A stretch of DNA of 64,000 bases from Devosia neptuniae (GTDB lineage Bacteria; Pseudomonadota; Alphaproteobacteria; Rhizobiales; Devosiaceae), in NCBI RefSeq assembly GCF_025452235.1, contig NZ_CP104965.1, positions 992,001 through 1,056,000 on the forward strand, in the 5' to 3' direction. Made by a program: the position numbers and the translations under genes. The notes beneath the pieces are model-generated. The model ran no database searches and was not told the DNA's origin. It worked only from the letters and a program-made list of their open reading frames with translations. Of this stretch, positions 850-35,794 are shown piece after piece (positions within the stretch are counted from its first letter, which is position 1; each line of letters starts with the position of its first letter).

Positions 850-961
850 CCCACCGGCCATTCCGGCGCAGGCCGGAATCCATTCTAACGAACGACAGAT
901 GCGGTGTGCCTCGCCTTCAGCATGGATTCCGGCCTGCGCCGGAATGACATTGTGGGTGGGG
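850..961. repeat. Long inverted repeat, diverged member of the palindromic family
   Basis: Perfect 25-bp inverted repeat: 859-883 pairs with 922-946, separated by 38 bases. The arms carry the CCGGCGCAGGCCGG core also found in the copies at 7654, 8221 and 35653. The internal loop differs from those copies, so this is a diverged relative. It fills the gap between the transglycosylase and the convergent hybrid kinase and may also act as a bidirectional terminator. Confidence 0.8.
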
Positions 962-6530: not shown

Positions 6531-6604
6531 GGGACGCCTCATGGTAAACACTTTACTAAGCAATAGACTCCATCATCTTTGATTAGCTGATTTGGAGCGC
6601 GATT

Positions 6605-7198
6605 ATGGACTCGACATATCACCTGACGGGCGCGCCCAAACCCACTCTCAAGCGCTTCGCTGACCTCGATGGCCCGGACTACTTTCCCACGCCAAGGTGG
6701 GCGACGCACGCCTTGGTTGCCAACGAGAAATTTGACGGTGATATCTGGGAATGCGCCTGCGGAGACGGCGCCATGTCTAAGGTACTGGAGGGCGCGGGGT
6801 ACGATGTATATAGCTCTGATCTATATGCCCGCCCTTACGGCGAGTCTGGGAAAGACTTCCTGACCACCCAACGAAACGCTTCAAATATCGTAACAAACCC
6901 GCCTTACAACAGTGCAGAGGGGTTTGTTAAAGCGGGGCTAGAAAAGGCCGAAAAAAAGGTGGCCCTTCTCCTAAGGCTTGCTTTTCTAGAGGGAAGTAAC
7001 CGCAATAGAACTATTTTTAACGTAGCGCCGCCGACGCGCGTTTGGGTCTTTAGCGAGAGAATTACGTTTTATCCCTCGGGCGCTACAATCGCGGGTTCCG
7101 GCACAACGGCATATGCTTGGTTTGTTTGGGACAAAGCCAACCTGGGCCAAACGGAGCTTCGTTGGTTCGACCCAGGTTTCAAAGCTCGCTACGCTTAG
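6605..7198 (+). CDS. Minimal phage-type SAM-dependent DNA methyltransferase
   Basis: A 197-residue class I methyltransferase. DYFPTPRWATHALV is the opening typical of phage-borne adenine-type methyltransferases, ECACGDGAM is the SAM-binding motif I, and NPPYN (about residue 100) is motif IV, the catalytic NPPY of N6-adenine and N4-cytosine enzymes. The protein has no obvious separate target-recognition domain, so its specificity is unclear. The start at 6605 follows TTGGAGCGCG. The gene is visibly poorer in GC than polA, which suggests acquisition. It converges on the winged-helix gene, sharing four bases (TTAG) at the two stops. No restriction endonuclease is adjacent, so it is an orphan modification enzyme or half of an unknown pair. 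Confidence 0.75.
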   Translation: MDSTYHLTGAPKPTLKRFADLDGPDYFPTPRWATHALVANEKFDGDIWECACGDGAMSKVLEGAGYDVYSSDLYARPYGESGKDFLTTQRNASNIVTNPPYNSAEGFVKAGLEKAEKKVALLLRLAFLEGSNRNRTIFNVAPPTRVWVFSERITFYPSGATIAGSGTTAYAWFVWDKANLGQTELRWFDPGFKARYA

Positions 7199-7497
7199 GG
7201 CTTAGCCTTTTTTCTTCCCTGCTCAGTAATTCGAAGTCTACCCTTACTTGGAGCGGTGAGGTACCCGTCGGCGATAAAGTTGCCCGGCGTTTTGTGATGG
7301 GACTTGATGTTTCTTAGGCGCTGCTCCCAAATTGCCTCGCCGGGCCGGGTTACAGAGGGCGTTAGATCATTGGTGGTTAAACTGACGTGATCAGGAACTC
7401 TCTTTCGAAGATGCGCTAACGTCGCGTCACCGCTCGGAATAGCAGACAGAACTTTTAGGACTGCTTCAGCAATCTCGTTCTCGGTTGTATCCGACAT
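7195..7497 (-). CDS. Small winged-helix-like protein of unknown function
   Basis: About 100 residues when read from the ATG at 7497, which has a strong GAGAGGGGG ribosome binding site; the frame continues upstream to 7551 without a good start. The C-terminal half (WEQRLRNIKSHH ... GYLTAPSKGRLRITEQGRKKA) resembles the winged-helix fold of Mrr N-terminal domains and similar small proteins near restriction genes. No catalytic residues are evident. It converges on the methyltransferase with a 4-base overlap and shares its lower GC. It could be a DNA-binding partner or regulator of that gene; this is inference. The bases from 7498 to 7653 are AT-rich and hold no other gene I can support. Confidence 0.6.
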   Translation of the reverse strand: MSDTTENEIAEAVLKVLSAIPSGDATLAHLRKRVPDHVSLTTNDLTPSVTRPGEAIWEQRLRNIKSHHKTPGNFIADGYLTAPSKGRLRITEQGRKKAKP

Positions 7498-7653
7498 TTT
7501 TCCCCCTCTCGACCAACACTCTATATTTGCTGTTGTTAGTACGATTATCAAACCAAAAGTGATTTCTTCAAAATCAAAGTAAACCTTCTGGGATCGGGCG
7601 GCACATCCTTGCTACTCATGGGTATAGCCGGTTCGGACTTTTCCTCAATCGCT

Positions 7654-7816
7654 CCCCACCTACGGTGTCACCCCGGCGCAGGCCGGGGCCCATCTCGAGA
7701 TATCACCACACGCCGCCAGATCGCCTGATGCGCCCCCTCGTCACCCACACACCTTGCGGTTGCAAGGCACCTCAGGATGGGCCCCGGCCTGCGCCGGGGT
7801 GACACCGTAGGTGGGG
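7654..7816. repeat. Palindromic repeat, 40-bp perfect arms (copy A)
   Basis: Bases 7654-7693 are the exact reverse complement of 7777-7816. The 83-base centre contains CGCCGCCAGATCGCCTGATG and ACACACCTTGCGG, both shared with the copies at 8221 and 35653. The element therefore has conserved arms and a conserved centre, which a simple terminator hairpin would not. It lies about 50 bases beyond the GIY-YIG gene's stop. Confidence 0.9.
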
Positions 7817-7864
7817 TGACGTTGGTGGTAGAAGAGTGGTGGGCAGGTTGGCGACCCCTCACCC

Positions 7865-8164
7865 TCAACCCTGCCCACTAATCTCCCACCACAGATCCGC
7901 CCAATCCGGATTGCGTTCCTCGATCAGCCGCTCCTTCCAGTCCCGTTTCCACTCCTTGATACGCTTTTCGCGGAGGATGGCCTGGTCGATATCCTCATGC
8001 GCCTCGAACCAGACCAGCCGCTTGCATCCGTGCTCCTGGGTAAAACCAGGTAACAGACCCTGGCGATGTTCATAAGCACGCCGGACGAGGTCATTGGTGA
8101 CGCCCGTATAGACCGTGCCATGCTTGCGGCTCGCCATGATGTAGACGAAGTAGGTTTTGCCCAT
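7865..8164 (-). CDS. GIY-YIG nuclease family protein
   Basis: A 99-residue single-domain GIY-YIG protein of the YhbQ/UPF0213-like group. The paired strands read YFVYIMASRKHGTVYTGVTN (GIY appears as VYI, YIG as VYTG), then DLVRRAYEHRQG with the conserved arginine, and REKRIKEWKRDWKERLIEE at the C-terminus. The biological role of these free-standing domains is poorly known; nicking of DNA is the expected activity. The gene is bracketed on both sides, within about 60 bases, by two copies of the same palindromic repeat, an arrangement resembling a mobile cassette. Confidence 0.85.
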   Translation of the reverse strand: MGKTYFVYIMASRKHGTVYTGVTNDLVRRAYEHRQGLLPGFTQEHGCKRLVWFEAHEDIDQAILREKRIKEWKRDWKERLIEERNPDWADLWWEISGQG

Positions 8165-8218
8165 GGGATGAGAACAACACGGGGCCTCAGTTTTGTCACC
8201 GCCCCAGCCCCAAACTCG

Positions 8219-8362
8219 ATGTCACCCCGGCGCAGGCCGGGGCCCATCTCGAGATCGTGCAACGCGCCGCCAGATCGCCTGGTGAGCACCTTCCGGTCAT
8301 CCACACACCTTGCGGCCAGGGTAGTATCTCAGATGGGCCCCGGCCTGCGCCGGGGTGACACC
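8219..8362. repeat. Palindromic repeat, 29-bp perfect arms (copy B)
   Basis: Bases 8221-8249 pair perfectly with 8331-8359. The centre shares CGCCGCCAGATCGCCTG and CACACACCTTGCGG with copy A, in the same orientation. Together with copy A it encloses the GIY-YIG gene. The rest of 8363-8470 is spacer before the kinase gene. Confidence 0.9.
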
Positions 8363-8470
8363 GTGGGTGGGCGGATATTTAAGCAAAGCGATCTCGCGTC
8401 TGGGGTGGCATAGTGAGCAAACGCCGCTAAACTTCGGGTCACGTCACAACCCTTCCCCTCACATCCCCCC

Positions 8471-8986
8471 ATGACCCCACCGCTCTTCATCATCACCGGC
8501 GCCATGGCGGCCGGGAAATCCACGATCGCCGAGGCGCTTGCAAAACGCCTGCCCAAATCCGTGCACCTGCGCGGCGACATCTTTCGCAAGATGATCGTCA
8601 ATGGCGCGGCCGAGATGGGGCCGGTGCTGGACGATGAGGCGCGGCAGCAGCTGGATTTGCGGCAGCTTCTCGCGACGGATGCGGCGCGCGCTTATCATGC
8701 GGCAGGGTTTGCTGTGGTCTATCAGGATATCCTGATCGGGCAGGATCTGGTGGCGGCGGCGGAGCGCCTGGCCGATCTCGCGCCGCAAGTCGTGGTGCTG
8801 GCGCCATCGGTGGCGACCTTGGCGCAGCGGGATCGGGCGCGGGCCAAGACCGGCTATGGCGAAAATTTTCCGCCCGATATTCTGGCCGAGGCGCTAACGC
8901 GCGAGACGCCGCGCCTCGGACTATGGATCGATAGTTCGGCTATGAGCGTCGAGGACGTGGTCGACGCCATTCTCGGCCACACTTAG
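8471..8986 (+). CDS. P-loop NTPase / small-molecule kinase-like protein
   Basis: A 171-residue protein with a Walker A loop near the N-terminus (GAMAAGKST), HLRGDIFRKM after strand 2, and YQDILIG in the middle. Length and motif spacing resemble the AAA_33 / chloramphenicol-phosphotransferase-like group of small kinases that phosphorylate hydroxyl groups of small molecules. The substrate cannot be told. The gene is monocistronic and directly follows repeat copy B; no clear ribosome binding site precedes the ATG. Confidence 0.7.
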   Translation: MTPPLFIITGAMAAGKSTIAEALAKRLPKSVHLRGDIFRKMIVNGAAEMGPVLDDEARQQLDLRQLLATDAARAYHAAGFAVVYQDILIGQDLVAAAERLADLAPQVVVLAPSVATLAQRDRARAKTGYGENFPPDILAEALTRETPRLGLWIDSSAMSVEDVVDAILGHT

Positions 8987-35652: not shown

Positions 35653-35794
35653 GGTGTCACCCCGGCGCAGGCCGGGGCCCATCCCGAGATGGCGCCCCAG
35701 CCGCAAGGTTTGTGAATGCCCCGTGATCATCAGGCGATCTGGCGGCGCGTTGTACTATCTCGAGCTGGGTCCCGGCCTGCGCCGGGATGACACC
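35653..35794. repeat. Palindromic repeat, inverted orientation (copy C)
   Basis: Arms 35653-35681 and 35766-35794 are reverse complements with a few mismatches. The centre carries CATCAGGCGATCTGGCGGCG and CCGCAAGGTT, which are the reverse complements of the core found in copies A and B, so this copy is inserted in the other orientation. It lies between two convergent genes. Confidence 0.85.

Follow-up and report, generated by a model that had tools for sequence, protein, structure and literature searches.

A stretch of 64,000 nucleotides (the window; C2:992001-1056000 of a 4.72-Mb genome) contains a short gene for a GIY-YIG nuclease between two long palindromic repeats. The locus raises the question whether such a gene and its palindromes form a mobile element, and whether the nuclease is the enzyme that spreads the palindromes. 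CGTC-tagged REPs are characterized by an unpaired CGTC, TGTC or CCTC tag, an 8-9-bp stem, a 4-5-nt loop and a CCA tail; the paper describing them records them in five phyla and in every order of Alphaproteobacteria, counts dRS3 (Neisseria) and RPE-6/RPE-4 (Rickettsia) among them, and states that transposase genes do not accompany these repeats (Di Nocera et al. 2013; PMC3733652). A superfamily study of 2006 asks whether there are more molecular parasites among the GIY-YIG members (PMC1564403). The present analysis makes the GIY-YIG family a good candidate for the long-missing enzyme spreading CGTC REPs.

Structure of the locus

The following features were located in the window:
926..949, minus strand: solo CGTC REP, ATTCCGGC variant, of the CGTC superfamily
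7195-7551, minus strand: short Mrr_N-domain ORF, left neighbour of repeat A
7654..7816, no strand: repeat A, a head-to-head CGTC-type REP dimer with a ~70-bp spacer between long arms, belonging to a genome-wide dimer family
7666..7689, plus strand: REP hairpin A1, with TGTC tag, 8-bp stem and 4-nt loop
7781..7804, minus strand: REP hairpin A2, in the orientation opposite to A1
7865..8164, minus strand: GIY-YIG nuclease gene, 99 aa
8208..8371, no strand: repeat B, the second head-to-head REP dimer
8220..8243, plus strand: REP hairpin B1, from the hairpin detector
8337..8360, minus strand: REP hairpin B2, from the hairpin detector
8471-8986, plus strand: AAA_33 kinase-like gene, right neighbour of repeat B
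35655..35792, no strand: gene-less REP dimer of the A/B family elsewhere in the window, read as a non-autonomous copy

The order is thus Mrr_N-domain ORF, repeat A, GIY-YIG gene, repeat B and kinase-like gene, with 48 bp between the stop codon and A and 43 bp between the start codon and B. The bracketing of the gene by two long palindromic repeats, noticed in the first-pass annotation, was confirmed by the arms, by folding and by the PF01541 match. The arms of repeat A (7654-7699 and 7771-7816) measure 46 nt and are 96% complementary; the 40-bp perfect arms originally assigned to it are their outer part. Repeat B had been delimited as 8219-8362 with 29-bp arms. The palindrome exists, but these limits were too narrow, as B extends over 8208-8371 with arms of 41 nt (8209-8249 and 8331-8371) that are 90% complementary. 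The internal sequence described as common to A and B in the same orientation was found again as 83% identity across the first 86 nt. Single-strand folding yielded z -11.6 for A and z -9.2 for B, and none of 200 shuffles was as good in either case.

Both repeats consist of two tagged 24-nt hairpins pointing opposite ways, TGTC-ACCCCGGC-GCAG-GCCGGGGC-CCA (tag, stem, loop, stem, tail), with A.C rather than A.T as first stem pair. In tag, stem, loop and CCA tail, in their dispersed multi-copy occurrence, mostly as head-to-head dimers, and in their abundance in Alphaproteobacteria, they correspond to the CGTC-tagged REPs as defined by Di Nocera et al. The 18-bp core, with up to two mismatches, occurs at 74 sites of the genome compared to 2 for the pattern read backwards; the sites are mostly paired, with cores ~100-135 bp apart. 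Among the dimers compared, the best partner of A was the dimer in L379 (85%), slightly above B (84%). A and B are not mutual closest relatives, and the moving unit at this locus therefore need not be exactly A-gene-B.

Several REP dimers (L007, L015, L025) lie inside another repeat (..TTTACTCGGGACTCGCC.. / ..GCGTTCTTGAAGGCGTCC..), so that repeats are nested. Between polA and repeat A (window 6605-7551) a 197-aa ORF without Pfam match accompanies the Mrr_N-domain ORF, and the same pair is located downstream of polA in genome G087, where the GIY-YIG gene is absent. A role as defence gene was rejected, as PADLOC returned no match for the GIY-YIG gene or its two left neighbours. An RNA family was rejected as well: the seven Rfam matches were all to MIR models, presumably plant microRNAs, stayed under the gathering scores and were read as a response to the long hairpin.

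The GIY-YIG protein and its copies in the genome

PF01541 (E 8.5e-14) was the sole Pfam domain of the gene product, and no second domain was found within the 99 aa. The GIY and YIG motifs are present as VYI and Y.G, and the catalytic Arg and Glu are kept. Residues Y8, Y19, G21, R29, H33, E66 and N85 are invariant in 14 diverse family members; Y8, Y19, R29, E66 and N85 are, we assume, those usually named catalytic. An NCBIfam search with the window gene returned no family. The only solved relatives found by sequence were two UPF0213 proteins of the same single-domain architecture (PDB 1zg2 and 1ywl, carrying the PDB name 'hypothetical'), a group which we take to be YhbQ / COG2827. The dN/dS ratio was below 1 in all 20 pairs, chosen from the more similar ones (median 0.11), and 0.07 between two copies in one genome; judged by these ratios, the protein is under purifying selection.

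The genome contains three PF01541 genes, one of them uvrC. The second non-uvrC gene (C2:1434108) lies inside a head-to-head CGTC REP pair of another type, CGTCATCCTCGGGCTTGACCCGAGGA upstream and its mirror image downstream. Both non-uvrC GIY-YIG genes (2/2) are thus located between CGTC REPs, each with its own REP type; the two types are CCCCGGC, that of the window gene, and CTCGGG. The profile match to the uvrC of this genome (C2:2482681-2484434) is divided between two open frames (5-412 and 407-572), and the gene is therefore broken or mis-assembled.

Association with REPs in the host's family

A profile search with PF01541 in 121 genomes of the host's family gave matches in 117, with 0-6 per genome among the matches listed, uvrC included. 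The best 82 by E-value among the matches listed, minus the own hit and one tandem duplicate (G004:C6:81844), provided 80 regions of up to 18 kb each, in which REPs were detected strictly as a [CT]GTCA tag followed by an 8-9-bp hairpin. Upstream of the genes, their density reached 4.5/kb within 100 bp compared to 0.03-0.08/kb past 500 bp, and downstream 2.3-3.5/kb within 200 bp compared to 0.04-0.13/kb past 1 kb. On reversed sequence no hairpin was detected within 2 kb and 3 beyond that distance; unrelated tags stayed near zero, and the near variant [AG]GTCA gave a weak echo of 0.1-0.4 per kb. A GTAG hairpin control, restricted to GTAG followed by A, detected none within 4 kb of the genes.

Strict REPs were present within 400 bp at 52 of the 80 loci, on both sides at 35, and absent at 28. 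With ORF ends as reference and the two genes of the own genome added, the count was 53/82 compared to 13/300 control positions (within 400 bp, Fisher p 2e-31). A looser hairpin detector found 57/82 loci against a high background of 62/300. In a motif-free test, an exact word of at least 16 bp was common to both gene flanks at 50/74 family loci and at 4/2359 controls; loci at contig ends (6/80 in the family set and 5/80 in the cross-phyla set described below) were left out of the shared-word tests. The uvrC genes of the family had 3 hairpins in 36 kb, flank-shared words of at least 14 bp at 0/30 and strict REPs at 2/30. Strict REPs were found at 0/30 PF02604 antitoxin genes and at none of three usable Y1-transposase loci (2/5 loci were too short). 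The check proposed with the first-pass annotation, whether such repeats cluster at GIY-YIG genes more than expected, thus turned out clearly in favour of clustering, in the family and across phyla, and the uvrC and antitoxin genes do not share it. Genome core counts, density, shared words and control positions together ruled out chance as the cause of the association. Unlike the CGTC REPs as described in 2013, with no transposase gene, the repeats examined here are consistently associated with a GIY-YIG gene.

Inspection of the 28 loci without strict REPs covered 27 of them, with L079 left out. Of the 28, fourteen belong to a clade of their own whose palindromes are of another type, variant hairpins are present at several of the rest, and at L064, L066 and L071 no sequence was common to both flanks. 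In the G055:C1:3046057 region (L286:1399-2906) one full and two partial GIY-YIG matches alternate in tandem with CGTC REPs of the same orientation.

Distribution across phyla and layout of the units

A scan of GTDB genomes with the 14-member alignment gave at least 585 relatives, 80 of which were kept. They include Alpha-, Beta- and Gammaproteobacteria, Desulfobacteraceae, Nitrospirae, Omnitrophota, Parcubacteria and Bacteroidetes, together with other candidate phyla and further groups. A CGTC REP was present within 400 bp of the match at 63/80 of these loci, on both sides at 44. Counted from ORF ends, the figure was 60/80 compared to 14/272 control positions (p 2e-36), with the looser detector 64/80 against a background of 51/272, and flank-shared words of at least 16 bp were found at 48/75 loci and 6/722 controls. 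Members of the gene family have cognate REPs on their flanks across bacteria.

In compact loci a REP(+) precedes the match by 9-30 bp and a REP(-) follows within ~30 bp. At L183 and L253 the end of the ORF runs into the downstream REP, whose ATGAC supplies the TGA stop codon. When both sets were pooled, REPs lay within 300 bp on both sides at 81/162 loci; the sets overlap by one, as L195 and L077 are one locus, and L069 and L070 are identical. The layouts of the 81 double-flanked loci were (+,-) in 37, (-,+) as in the window in 22, (+,+) in 13 and (-,-) in 9. The two flank stems of one gene differed on average by 1.06 of 9 nt compared to 2.87 after shuffling (lowest of 2000 shuffles 2.41), and the stem pairs were identical at 43/81 loci.

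REP type, protein clade and copy number

On a tree of 81 proteins REP type required 14 changes, compared to a shuffled mean of 47.5, and none of 200 shuffles was as low. This tree was built from few columns and has long branches, 31 of its 77 inner branches are open, and L002 (the window duplicate) and L140 (a broken gene) were left out of it. The pairing of REP type and clade could also come from gene and REPs travelling together and is by itself no proof of recognition.

Fourteen proteins with the ending ..LPxLASR.. or a similar one are set apart by a branch with a support of only 28 and have no CGTC REPs. The palindrome TCATGGTGAG / GTGGTTCGA and its relatives flank 14/14 of their loci, a count that is descriptive since the motif set was picked after seeing those flanks and the group label was given by it; elsewhere these palindromes were found at 0/66 other family loci and 8/300 control positions. 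The group and its palindrome form a possible second REP-enzyme system. The two loci L064 and L066, of a distant GIY-YIG clade, have neither CGTC REPs nor the second palindrome. The form CCTCATGGTGAGG.. / ..GTGGTTCGAGG of the second palindrome type was seen at L067, L078, L075, L091, L104, L129 and others. On balance we lean towards the view that the CGTC-REP superfamily has its dedicated enzymes in the single-domain GIY-YIG proteins, with a sister clade serving the CCTCATGGTGAGG / GTGGTTCGAGG palindrome.

Among 60 genomes of the genus, the copy number of CTCGGG REPs had a median of 79 where a cognate-clade gene is present (17 genomes) and of 8 where it is absent (43 genomes); the one-sided Mann-Whitney test, which ignores kinship, gave p 1.8e-6. 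The cut-off for a cognate gene, 133 bits, was chosen once the hits were known, where their bit scores left a gap. Seven of the 43 genomes without cognate gene still hold 42-96 CTCGGG REPs, and in the 13 genomes with no match at all to the cognate gene the median was 1 (range 0-15). RAYT was rejected as the driver, as the Y1 transposase domain (PF01797, Y1_Tnp) was present in only 4/121 family genomes and absent from the own genome.

Mobility of the REP-gene-REP units

Gene and REPs were encountered together at different places, with sequence similarity ending about at the REPs. In loci from five genomes (L001, L100, L123, L125, L131) the alignment holding the gene ended 42-71 bp upstream and 29-41 bp downstream of it, except for one of nine pairs with an upstream end only 6-9 bp from the gene. 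These ends fall at the REPs or up to ~15 bp outside, delimiting a unit of ~390 bp, and beyond it no further DNA match was found in these pairs apart from repeats. Translated comparison of the flanks gave 0 matches in one pair and 3-20 in the others, so that neighbouring protein families may be shared between the pairs. Similarly, the units L067 and L078, at two places in one genome, are 88% alike; the similarity ends 73 bp upstream and 58-65 bp downstream at second-type palindromes, and apart from such palindromes no other DNA match was found. As the compared units are 75-88% alike, the unit ends could be blurred by divergence. The surroundings of L080 and L081 match, and this pair was not used as mobility evidence.

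Plasmids provided alleles with and without the gene. In Sphingobium the gene is located between fnrL and a response regulator in seven records and is absent in four relatives and S. herbicidovorans; the alignment comprised four alleles with and five without it. The gene-less site of TomTYG64 has one REP whose left half equals that of the left REP and whose right half equals that of the right REP, TomTYG74 has the same outer-half REP in degenerate form, and three of the five aligned gene-less alleles have no REP at the site. One of the four aligned gene copies, in TomTYG73, reads as broken. Two Shinella plasmids with REP-gene-REP were aligned with three relatives without it, with edges that are not base-exact. 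In a Rhizobium empty-site search, all eight records covered at 80% or more keep the gene, and only one flank was matched in the other 59 records listed of 73. Outer-half solo REPs, here and in the chromosomal comparison below, are those at L300, L302, L396 and L397 (degenerate at L300 and L396), where relatives carry the gene or a dimer. Slippage between short direct repeats within the hairpins is another possible origin of a solo REP.

Mobility of the REP-gene-REP unit is well supported by these alignments, and the reading of the nuclease gene between its repeats as a mobile unit gains from clustering, unit edges and plasmid presence/absence alike. Comparison of strains, also proposed at the outset, gave the REP-only empty allele on plasmids and copies that lose similarity near the REPs, but no clean empty site for A-gene-B, because the whole 2-kb interval is replaced in the same-species genome G097. 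The present alleles do not establish A-gene-B as one precise moving block at the window locus.

The polA site and the same-species genome

Twenty stretches surrounding polA, from genomes of the same genus, were picked for the matches seen there. A GIY-YIG gene with CGTC REPs lies within ~3 kb downstream of polA in 13/20, with differing clades, REP types and distances, and no GIY-YIG gene was found near polA in the other 7/20 (G097, G082, G127, G087, G061, G034, G072). The site was read as a favoured place that is repeatedly occupied; an old occupant with turnover is the alternative. There was no sign of the gene as an ancestral resident without repeats, all 13 polA-site genes being close to CGTC REPs.

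G097 is the only other genome of the species. In its interval from polA to the kinase gene, the sequence of window 6531-8465 is replaced by other DNA. The two genomes of the species thus differ over the whole interval (G097:C62:45810-48143), which marks it as highly variable. No copy of either gene of the own genome (G000) was found in G097, where one GIY-YIG gene is enclosed by a pair of a third REP type (L376) and a further match has no strict REPs nearby (L377). The core is present at 34 sites in G097 compared to 74 in G000; G097 is a draft of 110 contigs, so that some core sites may be missing. The 50 core places of G000 were compared with G097 in 41 cases (nine places of G000 and four of the 34 sites of G097 were left out): 12 shared the REP with both flanks matching, 7 were partial or weak, and 22 had none. 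The genome is populated by gene-less REP dimers of the type that flanks the gene, and close relatives differ in them.

G097, G082 and G127 lack the L026 dimer of G000, their aligned flanks being 1-2 bp apart at this place. The inserted stretch of ~196 bp exceeds the dimer by ~40 and ~30 bp; the insertion extends past the hairpins, and its ends are therefore not at the tags. At L004, a dimer in G000 corresponds to an outer-half solo REP in G082, a degenerate one in G127 and none in G097. From these junctions the REPs themselves appear to move. No target-site duplication was recognised in the Sphingobium and Shinella, L026 and L004 junctions inspected.

Proposed mechanism and alternative explanations

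The gene and its flanking CGTC REPs probably constitute a minimal mobile element, REPtron-like, in which a GIY-YIG nuclease takes the place of the HUH (RAYT) transposase. The proposed mechanism is modelled on TnpA_REP, which cleaves single-stranded REP beside the hairpin (PMC8266576); branch-specific cutting is known from GIY-YIG enzymes of the Slx1 type. The enzyme would recognise REPs of its own type by their tagged hairpin, either extruded as a cruciform or formed on the lagging-strand template, and would nick them there. With another REP copy as source, repair or strand exchange would then insert, copy or remove the stretch between two REPs, which would be the gene in the autonomous unit or a short spacer in the dimers. 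An outer-half solo REP at sites without gene or dimer would be a trace of this process. We infer that the enzyme cleaves its own REPs, and the initial comparison with REP/RAYT systems is carried to that extent: the organisation is the same and the nuclease fold different.

The main rival is a gene homing into REPs without making them, a homing-like parasite that would cut solo REPs and be copied in, and would neither create nor spread REPs. Such a gene, being copied into cut solo REPs, would always end between REP halves. GIY-YIG is indeed described as a homing fold (PMC1564403), and the single symmetric outer-half REP at the gene-less site of TomTYG64, degenerately of TomTYG74, would fit as a target, as would the similar relation between the dimer in G000 and the solo REPs in G082 and, degenerate, G127. 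Yet three of the five gene-less Sphingobium alleles are without a REP at the site, and the solo REPs may have arisen by deletion instead of serving as targets. The most frequent arrangement, with the gene enclosed by a head-to-head pair (+,-; 37/81), speaks for homing; the layout of the window, with a complete dimer on each side (-,+; 22/81), is not one interrupted REP. REP copy number is moreover greater with the cognate gene, and overall we consider homing an unlikely, if serious, explanation.

Less probable still is a host-tamed REP nuclease that removes REP cruciforms and protects replication, the adjoining REPs being regulatory or co-inherited and neither partner moving. Strong purifying selection would agree with it, TnpA_REP is called a domesticated transposase in part of the literature (PMC8266576), and GIY-YIG members include branch- and structure-specific nucleases such as Slx1. 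A tamed function would, however, hardly account for the patchy presence (0-6 PF01541 matches per genome among the matches listed, uvrC included), for a same-species genome in which neither G000 gene was found and which has one of another type, for units at differing places with presence/absence on plasmids, or for only 12/41 G000 REP places held in common with G097 on both flanks. An ordinary short gene in REP-rich intergenic space, or one using REPs as terminators or insulators with no functional link, is highly improbable: REPs do lie outside genes, often downstream (PMC3733652), and small orphan genes do occur in long intergenic stretches, but small accessory PF02604 antitoxin genes (0/30), uvrC (2/30) and same-region control positions (13/300) rarely have them, and flank-matched REP types that track the clade are left unexplained.

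Relation to known systems

No published link between a GIY-YIG gene and REPs was found in the part of the literature searched, which was without preprints and most subscription journals, and the main text of RepRanger has no word beginning with nuclease or transposase (PMC12306157). If the link is causal, a protein of ~95 residues and a 24-nt hairpin would allow a direct test of both questions, that of the missing CGTC transposase and that of GIY-YIG parasites, and the many genes annotated as 'GIY-YIG nuclease family protein' would gain a function.

The units resemble the REPtron (RAYT/TnpA_REP with GTAG REPs; PMC8266576, PMC3733652) in that a single small enzyme gene is flanked by short tagged palindromes dispersed in the genome, present as monomers or dimers, in several types per genome, each with its own enzyme, and with non-autonomous dimers. 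They differ in the enzyme, which is GIY-YIG and not HUH/Y1, and in the tag, CGTC/TGTC and not GTAG; a REPtron defined by an HUH/Y1 gene and GTAG REPs was not found, as the window gene matched PF01541 only and Y1_Tnp was absent. The layout of a REPIN, two inverted REPs with a short spacer in dispersed copies, was found, including an L026 dimer insertion that three relatives lack, whereas mobilisation by RAYT in trans finds no counterpart in the own genome, which has no Y1_Tnp match. If the reading as a mobile element is true, REP-plus-enzyme systems would have arisen with at least two unrelated nuclease folds.

I-TevI and the free-standing Seg enzymes of T4 are GIY-YIG homing endonucleases, and the units share with them the selfish use of the nuclease domain. 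Unlike these enzymes, they have no intron and no second Pfam domain, but palindromes at both ends and a multi-locus spread. A homing gene cuts the uninterrupted allele and is copied into that site, and the REP-only empty alleles, 2/5 of the gene-less Sphingobium alleles, would be compatible with this. IS and MITE elements are defined by terminal inverted repeats and a target-site duplication; here copies at differing places have palindromic ends in common, and no target duplication was recognised in the junctions inspected singly. The REP-gene-REP units of ~370-400 bp would, if the reading is true, rank among the smallest autonomous mobile elements known and represent a bacterial transposon class with a GIY-YIG nuclease as only enzyme and gene-less REP dimers as passengers. 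A GIY-YIG nuclease is also used for transposition by Penelope-like retroelements, which are eukaryotic and carry a reverse transcriptase, whereas the unit of the window holds one short ORF.
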